IMG/VR virus record: IMGVR_UViG_3300034524_000034
Span: 1-23,285 of that record
Reading direction: 5' to 3' (one strand)
Source: a virus
Length of the DNA stretch: 23,285 nt
Every line of letters starts with the position of its first letter. Within the stretch, counting starts at the first letter, position 1. The position numbers were made by a program, and so were the translations under genes. This document shows, piece after piece, positions 17,674 through 23,285 of this stretch. The notes beneath the pieces are model-generated. The model worked only from the letters and a program-made list of their open reading frames with translations, ran no database searches and was not told the DNA's origin.

Positions 17674-17957
17674 TGGTGTGATATAAAAAATGCCGAGAAT
17701 GGCTTAAAGAATACCAAAAATTAACAGAATAGCCAATCTATATACAGATTTGCGAATATGGTTTCGATTTAAGCCCCTCTCGCTTGTTTTTAGTGCCTAC
17801 CCTAGTAAGTATACCTAATTTACGTTTTACCCCCAAAAATATTTGAATTAGAAGGCAAAAACGGCTATATGCGTGTTGCATTTGAAGTGATATATTCGAC
17901 ATGCGATAAATCAATGCATAAATTACACCACTTGCACTAGATGTGTATGTGGTGTTT

Positions 17958-17992
17958 CTTGTGCGTATGCGTAAGATGTGTGAATGCACAAG
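17958..17992. repeat. paired recombinase-site-like repeats 3' of integrase
   Basis: CTTGTGC (17958-17964) and GCACAAG (17986-17992) form a perfect 7-bp inverted repeat. The right part, ATGTGTGAATGCACAAG, matches 14 of 17 bases of the element before the integrase gene at 16643. The left part, CTTGTGCGTATGCGTAAG, is a further variant. These could be recombinase arm or core sites (attP candidate) or operators. Confidence 0.45.
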
Positions 17993-18018
17993 ACCAGTTA
18001 CAGATAAATCTCAGCCCC

Positions 18019-18132
18019 TTATATATATATATATATATATATATTAATTATATATATAATTATAATATATATATATTAATTATATATATAATTATAATAT
18101 ATATATATATTATATAAATTATTTATATATTA
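18019..18132. repeat. 114-bp pure A/T tract with 32-bp tandem repeat
   Basis: Not one G or C in 114 bases. It begins with alternating TA, then two 32-bp direct copies (18044-18075, 18076-18107), each holding the perfect palindrome TAATTATATATATAATTA. Such a tract would melt very easily and fits a DNA unwinding element; slippage during replication is an alternative origin for it. Confidence 0.8.
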
Positions 18133-18213
18133 CTCATTACATTCGTAATATATAAAATAATTTATTAGCGATAAACTGGAAATTTACCGCTGAAGTTAAA
18201 CAAACAAATTAAC

Positions 18214-18249
18214 AAGATCTTTCACTGATTGGTGAAGGGTCTTTTTTTT
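18214..18249 (+). terminator. intrinsic terminator, rightward
   Basis: AAGATCTTTCAC pairs with GTGAAGGGTCTT (12 bp, two G-U pairs) around a 6-nt loop, followed by TTTTTTTT. It lies 540 bp past the recombinase stop codon, so either the recombinase message has a long 3' end or a separate RNA ends here. It would also insulate the DnaA-box region. Confidence 0.88.
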
Positions 18250-18891
18250 ATGTCTGAAATTAAACCAACGGAGTGTTACCAACGAAGGGAAAAGTGATAA
18301 AAAATAAAATAAATATATTATTACTTGTAAATCCACACTATAAGTAATGAATTAGTAAAATAATCTTGTACAATTGTCATGTTTGATAATGTATTTAGAA
18401 TGATTATGGTGATATAAGCCAGGGAAGGAATTATATTGGTTAAGATAGTTTTAAAATATAAATAAAAGCTTTCCATGAGAATGTTCATTTTGGCATTGAT
18501 GATCAGAGTGCAAATAAGAGATTTTAAATATAAATATAAAATAGGGAATGGCTTGCTGTCGGGGATAGGTGGCGTTTGGTGAAATTTTTTTGAAGATACG
18601 GAAAGGTGCGAAATGGCCGGAAAATTTTTTGGGAGTAGAGTTGAGTACCCCCGCCGTGGCCGTGATGAATTGAAGTAAACATTTTAGTAAACCGCCCCAA
18701 CATTCCTTAAAAAAAATCATGCACGATAATGGCTATTATTGCTCATGCCGCCGGATGTAATTCCCACTGGAACGCTGTGAGTTTAATTCCCACTAACCCA
18801 CTATGAATACTATGATATAAGCCTCTGATTAGGGGTTGAGTGAAAAAAAGCAACAAAATTTCATACAATGCAATATGAATTAAATTACACT

Positions 18892-18952
18892 TTATCCACA
18901 CAAACACAACACTTATCCACAGCCTGTTGATAACCTTTTACACTGTGGATAA
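18892..18952. other. DnaA-box cluster, candidate replication origin
   Basis: TTATCCACA, the consensus DnaA box, is present at 18892-18900 and 18913-18921 on the plus strand and as TGTGGATAA at 18944-18952 on the minus strand. TGTTGATAA at 18925-18933 is a one-mismatch box. Four boxes in 61 bp is far above chance. Such clusters mark host-DnaA-dependent origins or DnaA-regulated promoters. Two AT-rich 12-mers follow immediately. Confidence 0.65.
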
Positions 18953-18967
18953 CTATAACAAGTCCAC

Positions 18968-19000
18968 TATATTGTATTTTTCGTGCATTATATTGTATTT
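18968..19000 (+). repeat. AT-rich 12-mer direct repeat beside DnaA boxes
   Basis: TATATTGTATTT is present at 18968-18979 and 18989-19000, 21 bp apart, i.e. two helical turns. AT-rich direct repeats next to DnaA boxes are typical of the unwinding part of origins. Confidence 0.55.
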
Positions 19001-19045
19001 ATTGCCCATGGCCAGCGCCTATATATAATTCCCTACAAGAATATA

Positions 19046-19069
19046 TACGTGTACGTGTACGTGTACGTG
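19046..19069 (+). repeat. four tandem TACGTG hexamers
   Basis: TACGTG is repeated four times without change. It may be a microsatellite-like expansion or iteron-like protein site; no function can be assigned. Confidence 0.6.
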
Positions 19070-19197
19070 CATGATTTTTCGCCATATAATGAAGAAAACA
19101 TTAATTAAAACATTTTAAATAGCCACAAAACAGCTGTATTATGCCATTTACACCACAGTTGTAACTAATTAGATACAATTATGTTACAATTTATCTA

Positions 19198-19267
19198 TAG
19201 ACTGATTATCGCTGACATGCTATACTTGCACCAAGTCAAGCGACACGGCGCCGGCATACCGGTAGCC
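19198..19267 (+). promoter_or_regulatory. weak promoter plus GC-rich hairpin
   Basis: TAGACT (19198-19203), 17-bp spacer, TATACT (19221-19226) make a moderate promoter. Just downstream GGC-G-CCGG, CATA, CCGG-TA-GCC (19247-19267) forms a strong hairpin, the most GC-rich piece of the region, followed after a gap by an A8 run and TTTTTT at 19273-19288. A short terminated RNA is possible. Confidence 0.35.
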
Positions 19268-19298
19268 CGAACTAAAAAAAAGTTTTTTAAAAAAAGTC

Positions 19299-19327
19299 TT
19301 GACAGTCTAACGCTTTCGTGATATCAT
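19299..19327 (+). promoter_or_regulatory. promoter P1 of accessory region
   Basis: TTGACA (19299-19304), exactly 17 bp, TATCAT (19322-19327). The spacer contains ACG-CTTT-CGTGA directly before the -10, matching the layout of promoter P2 127 bp downstream. Reads toward the small unknown gene at 19967 and the amidoligase operon. Confidence 0.75.
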
Positions 19328-19425
19328 GATGGCAAGTCAAACATCAATAGTTTTTAAGCGAAGCAAAATTCCCGCAGGAATGGCCAGGGGCTTGCATAGT
19401 AACTTAAGCGAGTTGAAAAAAAGAC

Positions 19426-19454
19426 TTGACATCCTCACGGAAACGTGAGATAAT
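19426..19454 (+). promoter_or_regulatory. promoter P2 with palindromic operator
   Basis: TTGACA (19426-19431), 17 bp, GATAAT (19449-19454). The spacer holds a perfect inverted repeat CTCACG-GAAA-CGTGAG (19434-19449) that touches the -10, a typical place for a repressor site. Confidence 0.8.
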
Positions 19455-19459
19455 AAGCA

Positions 19460-19950
19460 CAACAAACGAAACGGGTTCCCTGTTGACCCGAAAAACAGGA
19501 GGGCACCGCCTAAAACAGGTCATTGAAAACATAATATTAAAGGTAGTCGTGAGAAACCGACTAATCGCAGCAGAGAGTTGGAACGCCCACTGCGAACGCC
19601 TATAGGATTGACGACCCTATAAGGAATACAACCAACCTGTGAAAATCAGGAGGGGTATATACTGTGTGAGTCCGGTATATATGAAAATAGCACCGTTTGG
19701 TAGTTTAGGTGGATAAAATATAACACTACTCGACACTGTATTGTACGTAAAAATACAGGGCATTGGATGAATTCCTGGCCGAGTGCGGATATAAAATGAG
19801 CAATCATGGAAGTTCTACGCCTGATCAGGGATAAAGTACCGATTCCAAACGGGATAACTTATAAGATTTTATATGCCCATTGGTTTTTATAACAATGGGT
19901 ATTTATAAACCTTATGGGTTTAAAAATTATGGTGAGGATCACACTTAAAA
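19460..19950 (+). ncRNA. candidate structured leader or non-coding RNA
   Basis: About 500 nt between promoter P2 and the next gene, visibly richer in GC than its surroundings and without a good ORF. Hairpins readable by eye: CCTGTT/AACAGG (19479-19499), with an alternative CGGGT/ACCCG (19472-19490); TAGTCG/CGACTA (19544-19563); CGCAG/CTGCG (19566-19594); TATAGG/CCTATA (19601-19621); ATGCCCATTG/CAATGGGTAT (19873-19902, one G-U). No T run follows the last stem, so the RNA likely continues into the gene at 19967. It may be a long regulatory leader or one of the large phage RNAs; I cannot match it to a known class from sequence alone. Confidence 0.4.
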
Positions 19951-19966
19951 ATCAGGAGGATAAAAA

Positions 19967-20244: not shown

Positions 20245-20274
20245 TTGACAAACTAAAACGACAAAGTGTATCAT
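20245..20274 (+). promoter_or_regulatory. promoter P3 before the 47-aa gene and amidoligase
   Basis: TTGACA (20245-20250), 18-bp spacer, TATCAT (20269-20274), the same -35 and -10 as P1. It contains an ACG before the -10 but not the full P1/P2 shared element. Transcription would enter the gene at 20295 some 15 bases later. Confidence 0.7.
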
Positions 20275-20294: not shown

Positions 20295-20438
20295 ATGGTA
20301 ATCTACAAAAAACGAGTTTATGACGGATTAATCAAGGGCTATAAATACGACCAATTACGAAACGTGGTATGGCTTGAAGGGCTGTTTTTAGTAAAGTTTG
20401 CAGGGTTTCATGAATATTACCATGATATAATACGATAA
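20295..20438 (+). CDS. unknown micro-protein, 47 aa
   Basis: A 47-codon frame directly behind promoter P3, with CAGGAGGGGAAA before the ATG. The peptide (starting MVIYKKRVYDGLIKGYKYDQ) is basic, rich in Tyr, with a hydrophobic WLEGLFLVKFAGF segment and HEYYHDIIR at the end. Too short for the usual gene caller, but promoter, ribosome site and start are ideally placed. No function is known; it is co-transcribed with the amidoligase gene unless the hairpin at 20463 stops transcription. Confidence 0.65.
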   Translation: MVIYKKRVYDGLIKGYKYDQLRNVVWLEGLFLVKFAGFHEYYHDIIR

Positions 20439-20560: not shown

Positions 20561-21973
20561 ATGGCTGAAAACACTAAAAGAATCTGTATGGATTGTGGCT
20601 GTGTAATCGAAGATGGTATGGATTTTTTAGAGGGCGATAATGGTATAGTTTGCGAAACGTGTATGGATGAATGGTGTTTTTGTGAATTTTGCGGGGATAT
20701 TCATAGGGATTATAGTTTTGTAAGAGCGGAGGATACAGGAACATTTGCCTGTGATTATTGCGCTGGACAGCATTTTTACCAATGTAACGAGTGCGAGGAA
20801 TATTTTGAACTCAATTATAATATTCACCAGGACGACTACGGCAATACACTTTGCGAAGACTGTTTTTATGATGGTTATACTATTTGCGAAAATTGCGGCG
20901 AAATTATCCACTATGATCATGCTCATGAATATGATGGCTACTCATACTGTAGAAGTTGTTTTGACGAAATTGATAAAACGCCCGGAAACATTAACAGTTA
21001 TGGATATAAGCCATACCCTGAATTTTTCGGAGGGGAAAATACAGGCGAGTTTACTTTCGGTATGGAATTAGAAGCCGGGAACGGGACTTTAAGCGGTTTA
21101 AGTGAGTTTTGCGAGTATGCAGATATGGATGAAATCTATCTAAAAGAGGATTGCACAATTCCGGGTTATGGCTGTGAAATTGTAACTCATCCAATGACAT
21201 TTTCATATTTAAATGGCTGTTTTGACCTTGAGTCCATATTACAATCGGCGAGACAAAATGGCCTAACATCTCATGATAATGGGGATTGTGGGTTACACCT
21301 CCATGTTGATAAGCGGTATTTTGGGGATGATGATATGACACAAAAATTCAATATTGCCAAAACAATCATTTTATATGAACGCCATTTTGATAATATTGTT
21401 AATTTTTCAAGGAGACAAGAGTATAAAATTGATAAATGGTGCAATTGTTCAAGCATTAGTCGTAGACAACACGACACCGCTAGAAGTCTTGCGGATAAAA
21501 TAAGTGACAAAATATATGAGGATGACCGCTACGAAGCCGTAAACCTTCAAAACGAAAATACAGTTGAGTTCCGTGTATTCAGAGGGTCATTATTAATGGA
21601 AACTGTCATGGCTTCAATCCAATTCACAAAAATAATTATCGACTTTGCAAAATCATCAACAATTGATGTATGCGACAATGCTACATGGGGCGATATCATG
21701 GCAACTGGATCAGAATTTAAAGAATTGCAATCATATCTTGCAAAACGTAATCTTGTTGAAGAGCCAACTTCAAAATTTAGAATTGTAAATGTGGTAAATC
21801 CGTTTACTGGTGAAGTTCAGGAAATGTTTGATGTGGAATATAGTGAATTTGAAAAACAGGCTGAAATTTTGGCCGATGAAAATGTATCCGCAATAGATGA
21901 TTGCCCACCACTTGTCATTAGCAATACAATAAATGCTGGTCATGGCAATAACCTAGCGTGGATAGCTATATAA
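20561..21973 (+). CDS. zinc-module-fused amidoligase (COOH-NH2 ligase family)
   Basis: A 470-residue two-part protein. Residues 1-140 carry eight CxxC pairs at 9-12, 31-34, 41-44, 64-67, 75-78, 98-101, 109-112 and 130-133, i.e. four tandem CxxC-N18/21-CxxC modules with a 32-34 residue period, expected to bind zinc like LIM/treble-clef domains. Residues about 160-400 match the amidoligase_2 family of the glutamine-synthetase-like superfamily: FTFGMELEAG (165-173), a conserved CEIVTHP (205-211), CGLHLHVD (243-250) and NTVEFRVFRGSL (333-344). These enzymes use ATP to form amide or peptide bonds. The ATG follows GGAAAGG. The next gene encodes a class II glutamine amidotransferase, a likely partner. 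The zinc part may bind a protein or nucleic acid substrate. Substrate unknown. Confidence 0.85.
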   Translation: MAENTKRICMDCGCVIEDGMDFLEGDNGIVCETCMDEWCFCEFCGDIHRDYSFVRAEDTGTFACDYCAGQHFYQCNECEEYFELNYNIHQDDYGNTLCEDCFYDGYTICENCGEIIHYDHAHEYDGYSYCRSCFDEIDKTPGNINSYGYKPYPEFFGGENTGEFTFGMELEAGNGTLSGLSEFCEYADMDEIYLKEDCTIPGYGCEIVTHPMTFSYLNGCFDLESILQSARQNGLTSHDNGDCGLHLHVDKRYFGDDDMTQKFNIAKTIILYERHFDNIVNFSRRQEYKIDKWCNCSSISRRQHDTARSLADKISDKIYEDDRYEAVNLQNENTVEFRVFRGSLLMETVMASIQFTKIIIDFAKSSTIDVCDNATWGDIMATGSEFKELQSYLAKRNLVEEPTSKFRIVNVVNPFTGEVQEMFDVEYSEFEKQAEILADENVSAIDDCPPLVISNTINAGHGNNLAWIAI

Positions 21974-22060
21974 AATAGCCGTAAATACAACAAAAAGAAA
22001 AACAAAATAGTATAAAATAACAAAAAATACAATTATAGAAAAGGTTAAAAAGGTGAAATT

Positions 22061-23029
22061 ATGTGTATTATCGCAGTAAAAAATAGTGGAGTAAAAATGC
22101 CCGATGAAAAATTGATTAGGAATATGTTTCAAAGAAACCCTGACGGGGCGGGTTTTATGTATCTCGACAAAAACAAGAATAAAGTGATCATTGAAAAGGG
22201 TATCATGGATGTTAAAACCTTCTTAAAGAAGGTGAAGCGTTTTGGTGTTGATGACTCGCTTGTTATGCACTTTAGAATTGGGACAAGTGGCGGTAACACT
22301 AAAGCTAATACACATCCATTTATGATTAGCGAAAACATCGAAGACCTTAAAAAACTCAAGGCTGTTACTGATGTTGGAGTAGTCCACAATGGCATAATTG
22401 ATATTATGCCACGAAAGGGGATTAGTGACACAATGGAATTTATAGCGGATAGATTAGCACATATTAAAATGGCTATGCCGGGATTTTATAAAAATAAACA
22501 CATACTAAAGTGGGTTGAGAATGAAATTGGATCAAAAATGTGCTTCTTAACAGAAAAAAATGAAATTGTCACTATTGGTGACTTTAACGAAAACGAAGGT
22601 GTTTTGTATTCAAATTACACATATGAAGAAAGTAAATATAAAAGCACAGCCATTAAACCATACTCCTATTATGATTATGATTGGGATAAGTTTAGCTGGA
22701 TAGATGATTATGATACTGTTGACGAAAAAGTCAACACGCTTAAAAACGATGGATTATTGCCCAAAACACAAGGTAGAATTGCAAGATTATGCTTTGTCCC
22801 TGACGATTGTTTTATTTTGGATGAGTCAGACGGTCAAATTTATGATTCTCTTGACTATGTAGTTGACGAGTGCCTTAATGTTTTTGGAATTGTAAATACA
22901 TCGTTTGAAAACGGATACATGGAAGTTGTTTACAATGAAAACTTGCAACTGATCAAAGATGACGATTATGTAAAAGATCTTAATTTTGACAAACTTGATT
23001 TTGATTATTTCTATGAGCTATTCATGTAA
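22061..23029 (+). CDS. class II glutamine amidotransferase-like (Ntn hydrolase) protein
   Basis: A 322-residue protein beginning MCIIAV, so removal of Met would expose Cys2 as the N-terminal nucleophile, as in GATase class II enzymes (GlmS, PurF, YafJ-like). Supporting motifs: NPDGAGF (26-32), HFRIGTSG (70-77), THPF (84-87), VVHNGII (107-113) and SDTMEF (122-127). The first ~190 residues hold the domain; the remaining Asp/Tyr-rich part (about 200-322, with DDYDTVDEK and LDFDYFYELF) is not recognised. Such domains release ammonia from glutamine or cleave gamma-glutamyl bonds. The gene is 87 bp after the amidoligase and in the same direction. AAGGTG lies before the ATG. Direct channelling of ammonia to the amidoligase is inference. 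Confidence 0.85.
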   Translation: MCIIAVKNSGVKMPDEKLIRNMFQRNPDGAGFMYLDKNKNKVIIEKGIMDVKTFLKKVKRFGVDDSLVMHFRIGTSGGNTKANTHPFMISENIEDLKKLKAVTDVGVVHNGIIDIMPRKGISDTMEFIADRLAHIKMAMPGFYKNKHILKWVENEIGSKMCFLTEKNEIVTIGDFNENEGVLYSNYTYEESKYKSTAIKPYSYYDYDWDKFSWIDDYDTVDEKVNTLKNDGLLPKTQGRIARLCFVPDDCFILDESDGQIYDSLDYVVDECLNVFGIVNTSFENGYMEVVYNENLQLIKDDDYVKDLNFDKLDFDYFYELFM

Positions 23030-23107
23030 TTTGTAAAAGGTGTGGGCATTTTAACAAGTGCCTACTCTTGTATAAATTAATAAAAAATACAAAAGGAGGA
23101 TTTAAAA

Positions 23108-23285
23108 ATGGAACTGGTAAATGTTAGGGATTGCATTGAGTTCGTGGATGATTTAACAGATGTGGCGGATATTGTACGGCCTGTAATGGGGGATGATTTG
23201 GCGGATTACATTAAAAGACAAGATTATTCAGCGGAAAAACACTTGCAGGAATTGAAATTCAATTCAGATTTTGAAGCTTATGAAG
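23108..23285 (+). CDS. start of unknown gene, truncated by window edge
   Basis: An ATG with AAAGGAGGATTTAAAA before it opens a frame that stays open to the window edge (59 codons). The visible part, beginning MELVNVRDCIEFVDDLTDVA, is acidic and helical. It is the third gene of the amidoligase/amidotransferase operon or starts a new unit after the hairpin in the gap (around 23042-23066, GTGGGCATT with AAGTGCCTAC). No function can be assigned from the fragment. Confidence 0.7.
   Translation, partial: MELVNVRDCIEFVDDLTDVADIVRPVMGDDLADYIKRQDYSAEKHLQELKFNSDFEAYE

Follow-up and report, generated by a model that had tools for sequence, protein, structure and literature searches.

A predicted amidoligase with LIM-like zinc modules and a predicted class II glutamine amidotransferase are encoded by a conserved gene pair in phages and clostridial elements

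The stretch of DNA analysed here (hereafter the window) is a 23,285-base viral record, IMG/VR record IMGVR_UViG_3300034524_000034. It has the gene content of a tailed phage, with genes for tape measure, portal, terminase and head on the minus strand and one for a tyrosine integrase on the plus strand, in agreement with the phage origin proposed in a first-pass annotation of the sequence. At the right end of the record lie two plus-strand open reading frames separated by 87 bases, exactly where that annotation had placed two adjacent genes. The upstream gene (20561-21973) encodes a 470-residue predicted amidoligase, in which N-terminal zinc modules precede a ligase core of glutamine-synthetase (GS)/GCS fold (PF12224, phrog_16683, AF2 and Foldseek), and the downstream gene (22061-23029) encodes a 322-residue predicted class II (Ntn) glutamine amidotransferase (GATase; family profile against PDB, and residue conservation). 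The annotation had also described the nearby promoters as strong; upstream of the operon, a scan identifies one sigma-70-like site on the plus strand (TTGACA-18-TATCAT; 20245-20274), which matches 11 of 12 positions and is strong in the sense of a consensus match only. The first small open reading frame past this site, read directly from the sequence (20295-20438, plus strand; 47 residues; AGGAGG ribosome-binding site), has no BLASTP match among the open reading frames of related loci. Downstream of the GATase gene, a consensus scan detects a weak terminator-like hairpin (23042-23065, plus strand; 10 pairs, only 4 of them G-C), followed by a plus-strand gene that is preceded by AGGAGG, extends beyond the window end (23108-23285) and has no relative among related loci. 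The window has no near DNA relative among annotated phages, and PADLOC returns no match.

Between the integrase gene and the rightward operon is a stretch of about 2.3 kb that contains no convincing open reading frame (17674-19966). This stretch includes a tract of AT dinucleotides (18020-18140), strong promoter-like sites at 19299 and 19426 (each matching 11 of 12 positions with a TG extension) and a segment that by eye resembles a structured non-coding RNA (19460-19900). An Rfam search of the stretch yields no match at the gathering threshold, and below the threshold only chance-level ones.

The 470-residue protein contains all four motifs that the annotation had cited for its amidoligase assignment (FGMELEA, CEIVTHP, GLHLHVD and VEFRVFRGS), and the assignment itself is borne out by profile searches: Amidoligase_2 (PF12224) matches residues 202-358 with E=3.4e-15 and 57 bits (cut-off 22), and phrog_16683 matches the protein with E=1e-44, whereas NCBIfam provides nothing useful. 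An AF2 model computed with an alignment of 71 sequences has a mean pLDDT of 85.9 (33, and useless, when computed with no alignment) and exhibits a fold of the glutamine-synthetase/YbdK type at residues 159-399 (21035-21757, plus strand), C-terminal to the zinc modules. In Foldseek searches with the model, YbdK-type chains are the best matches (E=3e-5), and Dop, PafA and glutamine synthetases rank lower. In VIA-align comparisons, the core aligns with YbdK-type 1tt4 with Z 12.7 (214 residues, 3.7 Å) and with many glutamine synthetases with Z about 12. Twelve core residues (G167, E169, E171, D197, E206, G244, H246, H248, R285, N328, E336 and R338) are kept in 0.90-0.99 of 160 sequences, among them E169, E171, E206, H246, H248, E336 and R338, and the protein has the Amidoligase_2 catalytic pattern of ExE, E, HxH and ExR. 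We conclude, from sequence and modelled fold, that the protein is a member of the Amidoligase_2 family with a GS/GCS-type fold and with predicted ligase activity.

The eight CxxC motifs of the ligase, starting at residues 9, 31, 41, 64, 75, 98, 109 and 130, make up four CxxC...CxxC modules (residues 9-133; 20585-20959, plus strand), the number given in the annotation; the motifs suggest that the modules would bind zinc. Foldseek matches the modules to the LIM domains of LMO2 (E=1e-3) and PINCH (E=3e-3), and a profile search gives a weak match to LIM proteins (E=0.0065). LIM domains have the spacing CX2C-X16-23-HX2C-X2-CX2C-X16-21-CX2C/H/D. In the ligase, the third position is Cys, not His, and the modules are separated by 6-7 residues, not 2; because of this inter-module spacing and the missing His ligand, we call the modules LIM-like, not LIM. 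A literature search for LIM domain together with amidoligase found nothing. The presence of modules correlates with features of the neighbouring gene. Ligases with at least two CxxC motifs have an adjacent GATase in 101 of 103 loci, with GATases typically of 288-305 residues, whereas ligases with no or one CxxC motif have an adjacent GATase in 13 of 26 loci (some of them truncated at contig ends), with a median GATase length of 220 residues. The trends in adjacency and length fit, but do not prove, an interaction of the zinc modules with the GATase extension. The modules may select the target, as the annotation had proposed, but they might just as well serve to dock the GATase.

The 322-residue protein, compared as a single sequence with Pfam GATase_4, scores E=0.0023 and 17.4 bits, under the cut-off of 23, a cut-off that is a library convenience and not a defining trait of class II GATases; a relative in another locus (L002) scores 26.7 bits, over the cut-off. 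NCBIfam likewise suggests a GlmS-type protein, far under its cut-off. A family profile built from the protein and six relatives matches GlmS (E=2.1e-10) and PurF (E=4e-9) in the PDB. Cys2, Arg72, Thr75, His85, His109-Asn110-Gly111 and Asp123 are kept in 0.95-0.99 of 164 sequences (Cys2, Arg72, Asn110 and Gly111 in.99, Thr75 in.96 and Asp123 in.95), and His70 is also among the conserved residues. The C-terminal extension, of about 130 residues, has no known match. We conclude that the protein is, as judged by profile and conserved residues, a class II (Ntn) glutamine amidotransferase with predicted glutaminase activity, as the annotation had proposed on the basis of Cys2; the conserved residues would also fit gamma-glutamyl hydrolases. 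The profile test that the annotation had suggested thus places the ligase over its cut-off with a single sequence and identifies the GATase clearly by family profile, not by single sequence. The catalytic geometry that it had expected of predicted structures is supported for the ligase by predicted fold together with residue conservation, and for the GATase by residue conservation.

To assess pairing of the two genes we scanned IMG/VR with three-member alignments, seeding separately with the GATase and with the ligase (seven-member alignments were too divergent for scanning, and single-protein scans of viral contigs gave no relatives). The GATase is also present in 77 of 79 ligase-seeded viral loci, and the ligase in 72 of 80 GATase-seeded viral loci. 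In GTDB, 79 loci have the ligase, most of them by far titled as Clostridia or their families, and 68 of the 79 also have the GATase. Conservation of the pair in related phages, the further test that the annotation had named, is therefore observed. The two genes are on the same strand in all pairs, viral and clostridial, and the ligase precedes the GATase in 75 ligase-seeded, 72 GATase-seeded and 67 clostridial loci (147 of 149 for the viral total). In both ligase-only viral loci the ligase is at the locus end, and several GATase-only loci are likewise end-located. In 135 of 152 pairs no more than 200 bases separate ligase and GATase, the two genes overlapping in 44, and some GATases are 0.5-3 kb away from their ligase. 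Redundancy is moderate, with 156 pairs from viral and phage records reducing to 99 at 70% ligase identity. Ligase and GATase distances are correlated with r=0.47, against a maximum of 0.16 in 1000 permutations, a correlation that shared descent alone could produce.

Both genes are also present in annotated phages, namely Marvin, MEP402, the integrase-bearing spring podophage MW202733 and a Christensenellales phage, and in two further unannotated records; a search of plasmids returned six weak matches only. In the clostridial loci, the neighbours of the pair include a serine resolvase (39 loci), an integrase (16), a D5-type primase (13) and a relaxase (10), that is, these loci are mobile elements. 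Clustering of all neighbours in search of a third gene, encoding a precursor peptide or substrate, shows that even the most frequent viral families occur in no more than 19 of 99 representatives, and so no dedicated substrate gene emerged. In seven loci (L010, L011, L026, L079, L092, L102 and L105) two ligases lie beside one GATase, and the tandem or nearby copies keep nearly all twelve core residues, Asn328 being changed to Ser once in each of L026 and L079.

Several loci show other arrangements or neighbours. A DUF960 protein is encoded, usually immediately 5' to the amidoligase gene, in 27 of the 79 clostridial loci (L169-L247), and a DUF3846 protein nearby in 8 of the 79. Clostridioides phage AR1086-1 (L008:5551-7740) has an amidoligase with no adjoining GATase; the neighbouring gene encodes an RNA-repair nucleotidyltransferase (RlaP), and kptA is located some 4 kb upstream. 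MT839723, deposited as a bacteriophage, contains by eye a prolipoprotein diacylglyceryl transferase gene (L007:2-790) and may be a bacterial or integrative element rather than a phage. In Faecalimonas phage NatCom_26447 (L009:5773-7218), the partner of the amidoligase is a gamma-glutamyl cyclotransferase, not a GATase, and amidoligases with a gamma-glutamyl cyclotransferase occur also in C. clostridioforme prophages (PMC11318856).

The ligase core shares its fold with YbdK/GCS2 carboxylate-amine ligases and glutamine synthetase, which are not known to have zinc modules or a GATase partner. A works-like comparison is provided by MurT-GatD lipid II isoglutaminyl synthase, in which two subunits carry out glutamine-fed amidation; its folds, a Mur ligase and a class I GATase, are unrelated to those of the pair. 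Mycobacteriophage Marvin (JF704100) has, like the window, adjacent genes for an Amidoligase_2-like and a class II GATase-like protein in identical order (gp105-gp106), although its proteins are about 27% identical to those of the window and its own Amidoligase_2 and GATase_4 scores are under cut-off. In the Marvin record (L004:5971-8311) gp105 is annotated as a glutamine amidotransferase yet matches amidoligase, gp106 being the amidotransferase; gp105 counterparts in many Marvin-like records share both this annotation and this match. Methylophilales phages MEP401 and MEP402, like the window, have the GATase directly after the amidoligase; the MEP402 ligase, unlike that of the window, has a long N-terminus with 2 CxxC motifs counted. 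Podophages like LUZ24, tf, phiEco32 and RIO-1 resemble the window in encoding Amidoligase_2 and, close by, a class II GATase, in their case in the early region, and they also encode a COOH-NH2 ligase, an ATP-grasp protein and GGCT.

The pair itself has precedents: published accounts of amidoligase/amidotransferase pairs in phages go back to about 2009-2013. Iyer et al. predicted phage amidoligase and GATase genes in 2009 (as related in PMC10580990); ORF23 and ORF25 of UFV-P2 are an example of the pair (PMC3890496); and amidoligase and GATase have been assigned, together with GGCT, a second ligase and ATP-grasp, to a predicted peptidoglycan-modification module, for which a role in preventing superinfection has been proposed (PMC5498523, PMC3890496, PMC10580990, PMC11945000). 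A role of MurT-GatD in peptidoglycan amidation is described in PMC3267633. In the pair-bearing records, which may be fragments, the COOH-NH2 ligase family is present in 1 of 51 and GGACT (GGCT) in 8 of 51, and in the window, a 23-kb fragment, neither has a match (PF14395, PF06094). From these frequencies the pair mostly acts with neither the COOH-NH2 ligase nor GGACT. What our analysis adds is the strictness of the pairing, the lack of the module's COOH-NH2 ligase and GGCT from most of these records, the occurrence of one GATase for two intact ligases, and the association of zinc-bearing ligases with longer GATases.

In what we consider the likeliest explanation, slightly more probable than an even chance, the products of the two genes are the subunits of a single amide synthetase that depends on glutamine. 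According to this hypothesis, the GATase subunit would free ammonia from glutamine and hand it to the ligase, the ligase would use ATP to turn a carboxylate into an acyl phosphate, the carboxylate, belonging to a peptide, a protein or peptidoglycan, would end up as a primary amide, and the LIM-like zinc modules would dock the GATase, the substrate or both. The hypothesis is supported by both families and folds, by the conserved catalytic residues by the near-invariant pairing of ligase then GATase and by the lack of any universal third gene in the clustering, and two ligases per GATase would suit an ammonia supplier that both share. Against it count the GATases 0.5-3 kb away from their ligase and the fact that GS-fold ligases characterised so far work with free ammonia or amines, so that a class II GATase of their own would not be required a priori. 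An alternative, which we judge unlikely but to be taken seriously, is that the amidoligase adds a gamma-glutamyl group or an amino acid to a target and that the Ntn protein, instead of donating ammonia, acts as an amidase or peptidase that takes the group off again or processes the gamma-glutamyl bond. GATase-like Ntn enzymes can be hydrolases, the amidotransferase is classed with degradation genes in published readings of the related module (PMC5498523), and a gamma-glutamyl cyclotransferase replaces the GATase beside some amidoligases (L009; PMC11318856); but the strict one-to-one adjacency and fixed order suggest joint more than opposing action, and the residues of the glutamine pocket are kept (R72, T75, H85, N110-G111 and D123), a pattern that a gamma-glutamyl hydrolase would fit too.

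The annotation had held that the pair makes an amide bond on a substrate left unknown, and the family assignments and pairing support that statement; a search found no pair member with a known substrate. Its further suggestion, a superinfection block or protection against host defence, is a guess. The proposal that phage amidoligases exclude superinfection through cell-wall modification already exists (Iyer et al., 2009, as related in PMC10580990; and PMC5498523), and the same two enzyme types in phiEco32-, LUZ24- and RIO-1-type phages have been predicted to modify peptidoglycan (PMC5498523, PMC10580990, PMC11945000). In the corresponding reading, which names a substrate and a benefit and is compatible with a two-subunit synthetase, the pair would be the core of a system that amidates or links stem-peptide carboxylates and thereby blocks adsorption of rivals or cutting by lysins. 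We regard this as a tentative possibility, since the COOH-NH2 ligase is nearly absent from pair-bearing records and GGACT is rare in them, the pair is found also on clostridial elements, close to genes for a relaxase or resolvase, and by eye neither a signal peptide nor a membrane segment is evident, so that the target would have to be a cytoplasmic precursor. A cell-wall carboxylate, although suggested in print, is neither supported nor excluded as the substrate by the present data, which do not point specifically to it. Modification of nucleobases or DNA, for example by amidation of a 7-deazaguanine carboxylate, appears very improbable. Class II GATases occur in that setting too, as GATase-QueC fusions; but QueC is present in 0 of 51 pair-bearing records, with 12 of 14 control genomes positive, and we reject the 7-deazaguanine pathway on this basis.

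For a two-subunit synthetase, possible benefits to the phage would include a cell wall changed to the disadvantage of rivals, or the concealment of a target in the host. A more specific version, which we consider improbable, is that the LIM-like array selects a host protein and that mobile elements use the stand-alone GS-fold glutamine-dependent synthetase to amidate a specific protein carboxylate, in counter-defence or host takeover; if true, the pair would be a viral protein-amidation system and, as far as we know, the first case in which a separate class II amidotransferase supplies a GS-fold ligase. In its minimal form of two genes the pair is tractable, consisting of two apparently soluble proteins with a conserved Cys2 and a defined zinc array. 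The pair is strictly retained in viral contigs from many samples, in cultured mycobacterial and marine Methylophilales phages, and in clostridial mobile elements. Kept so strictly across these elements, the pair must be useful to mobile DNA.
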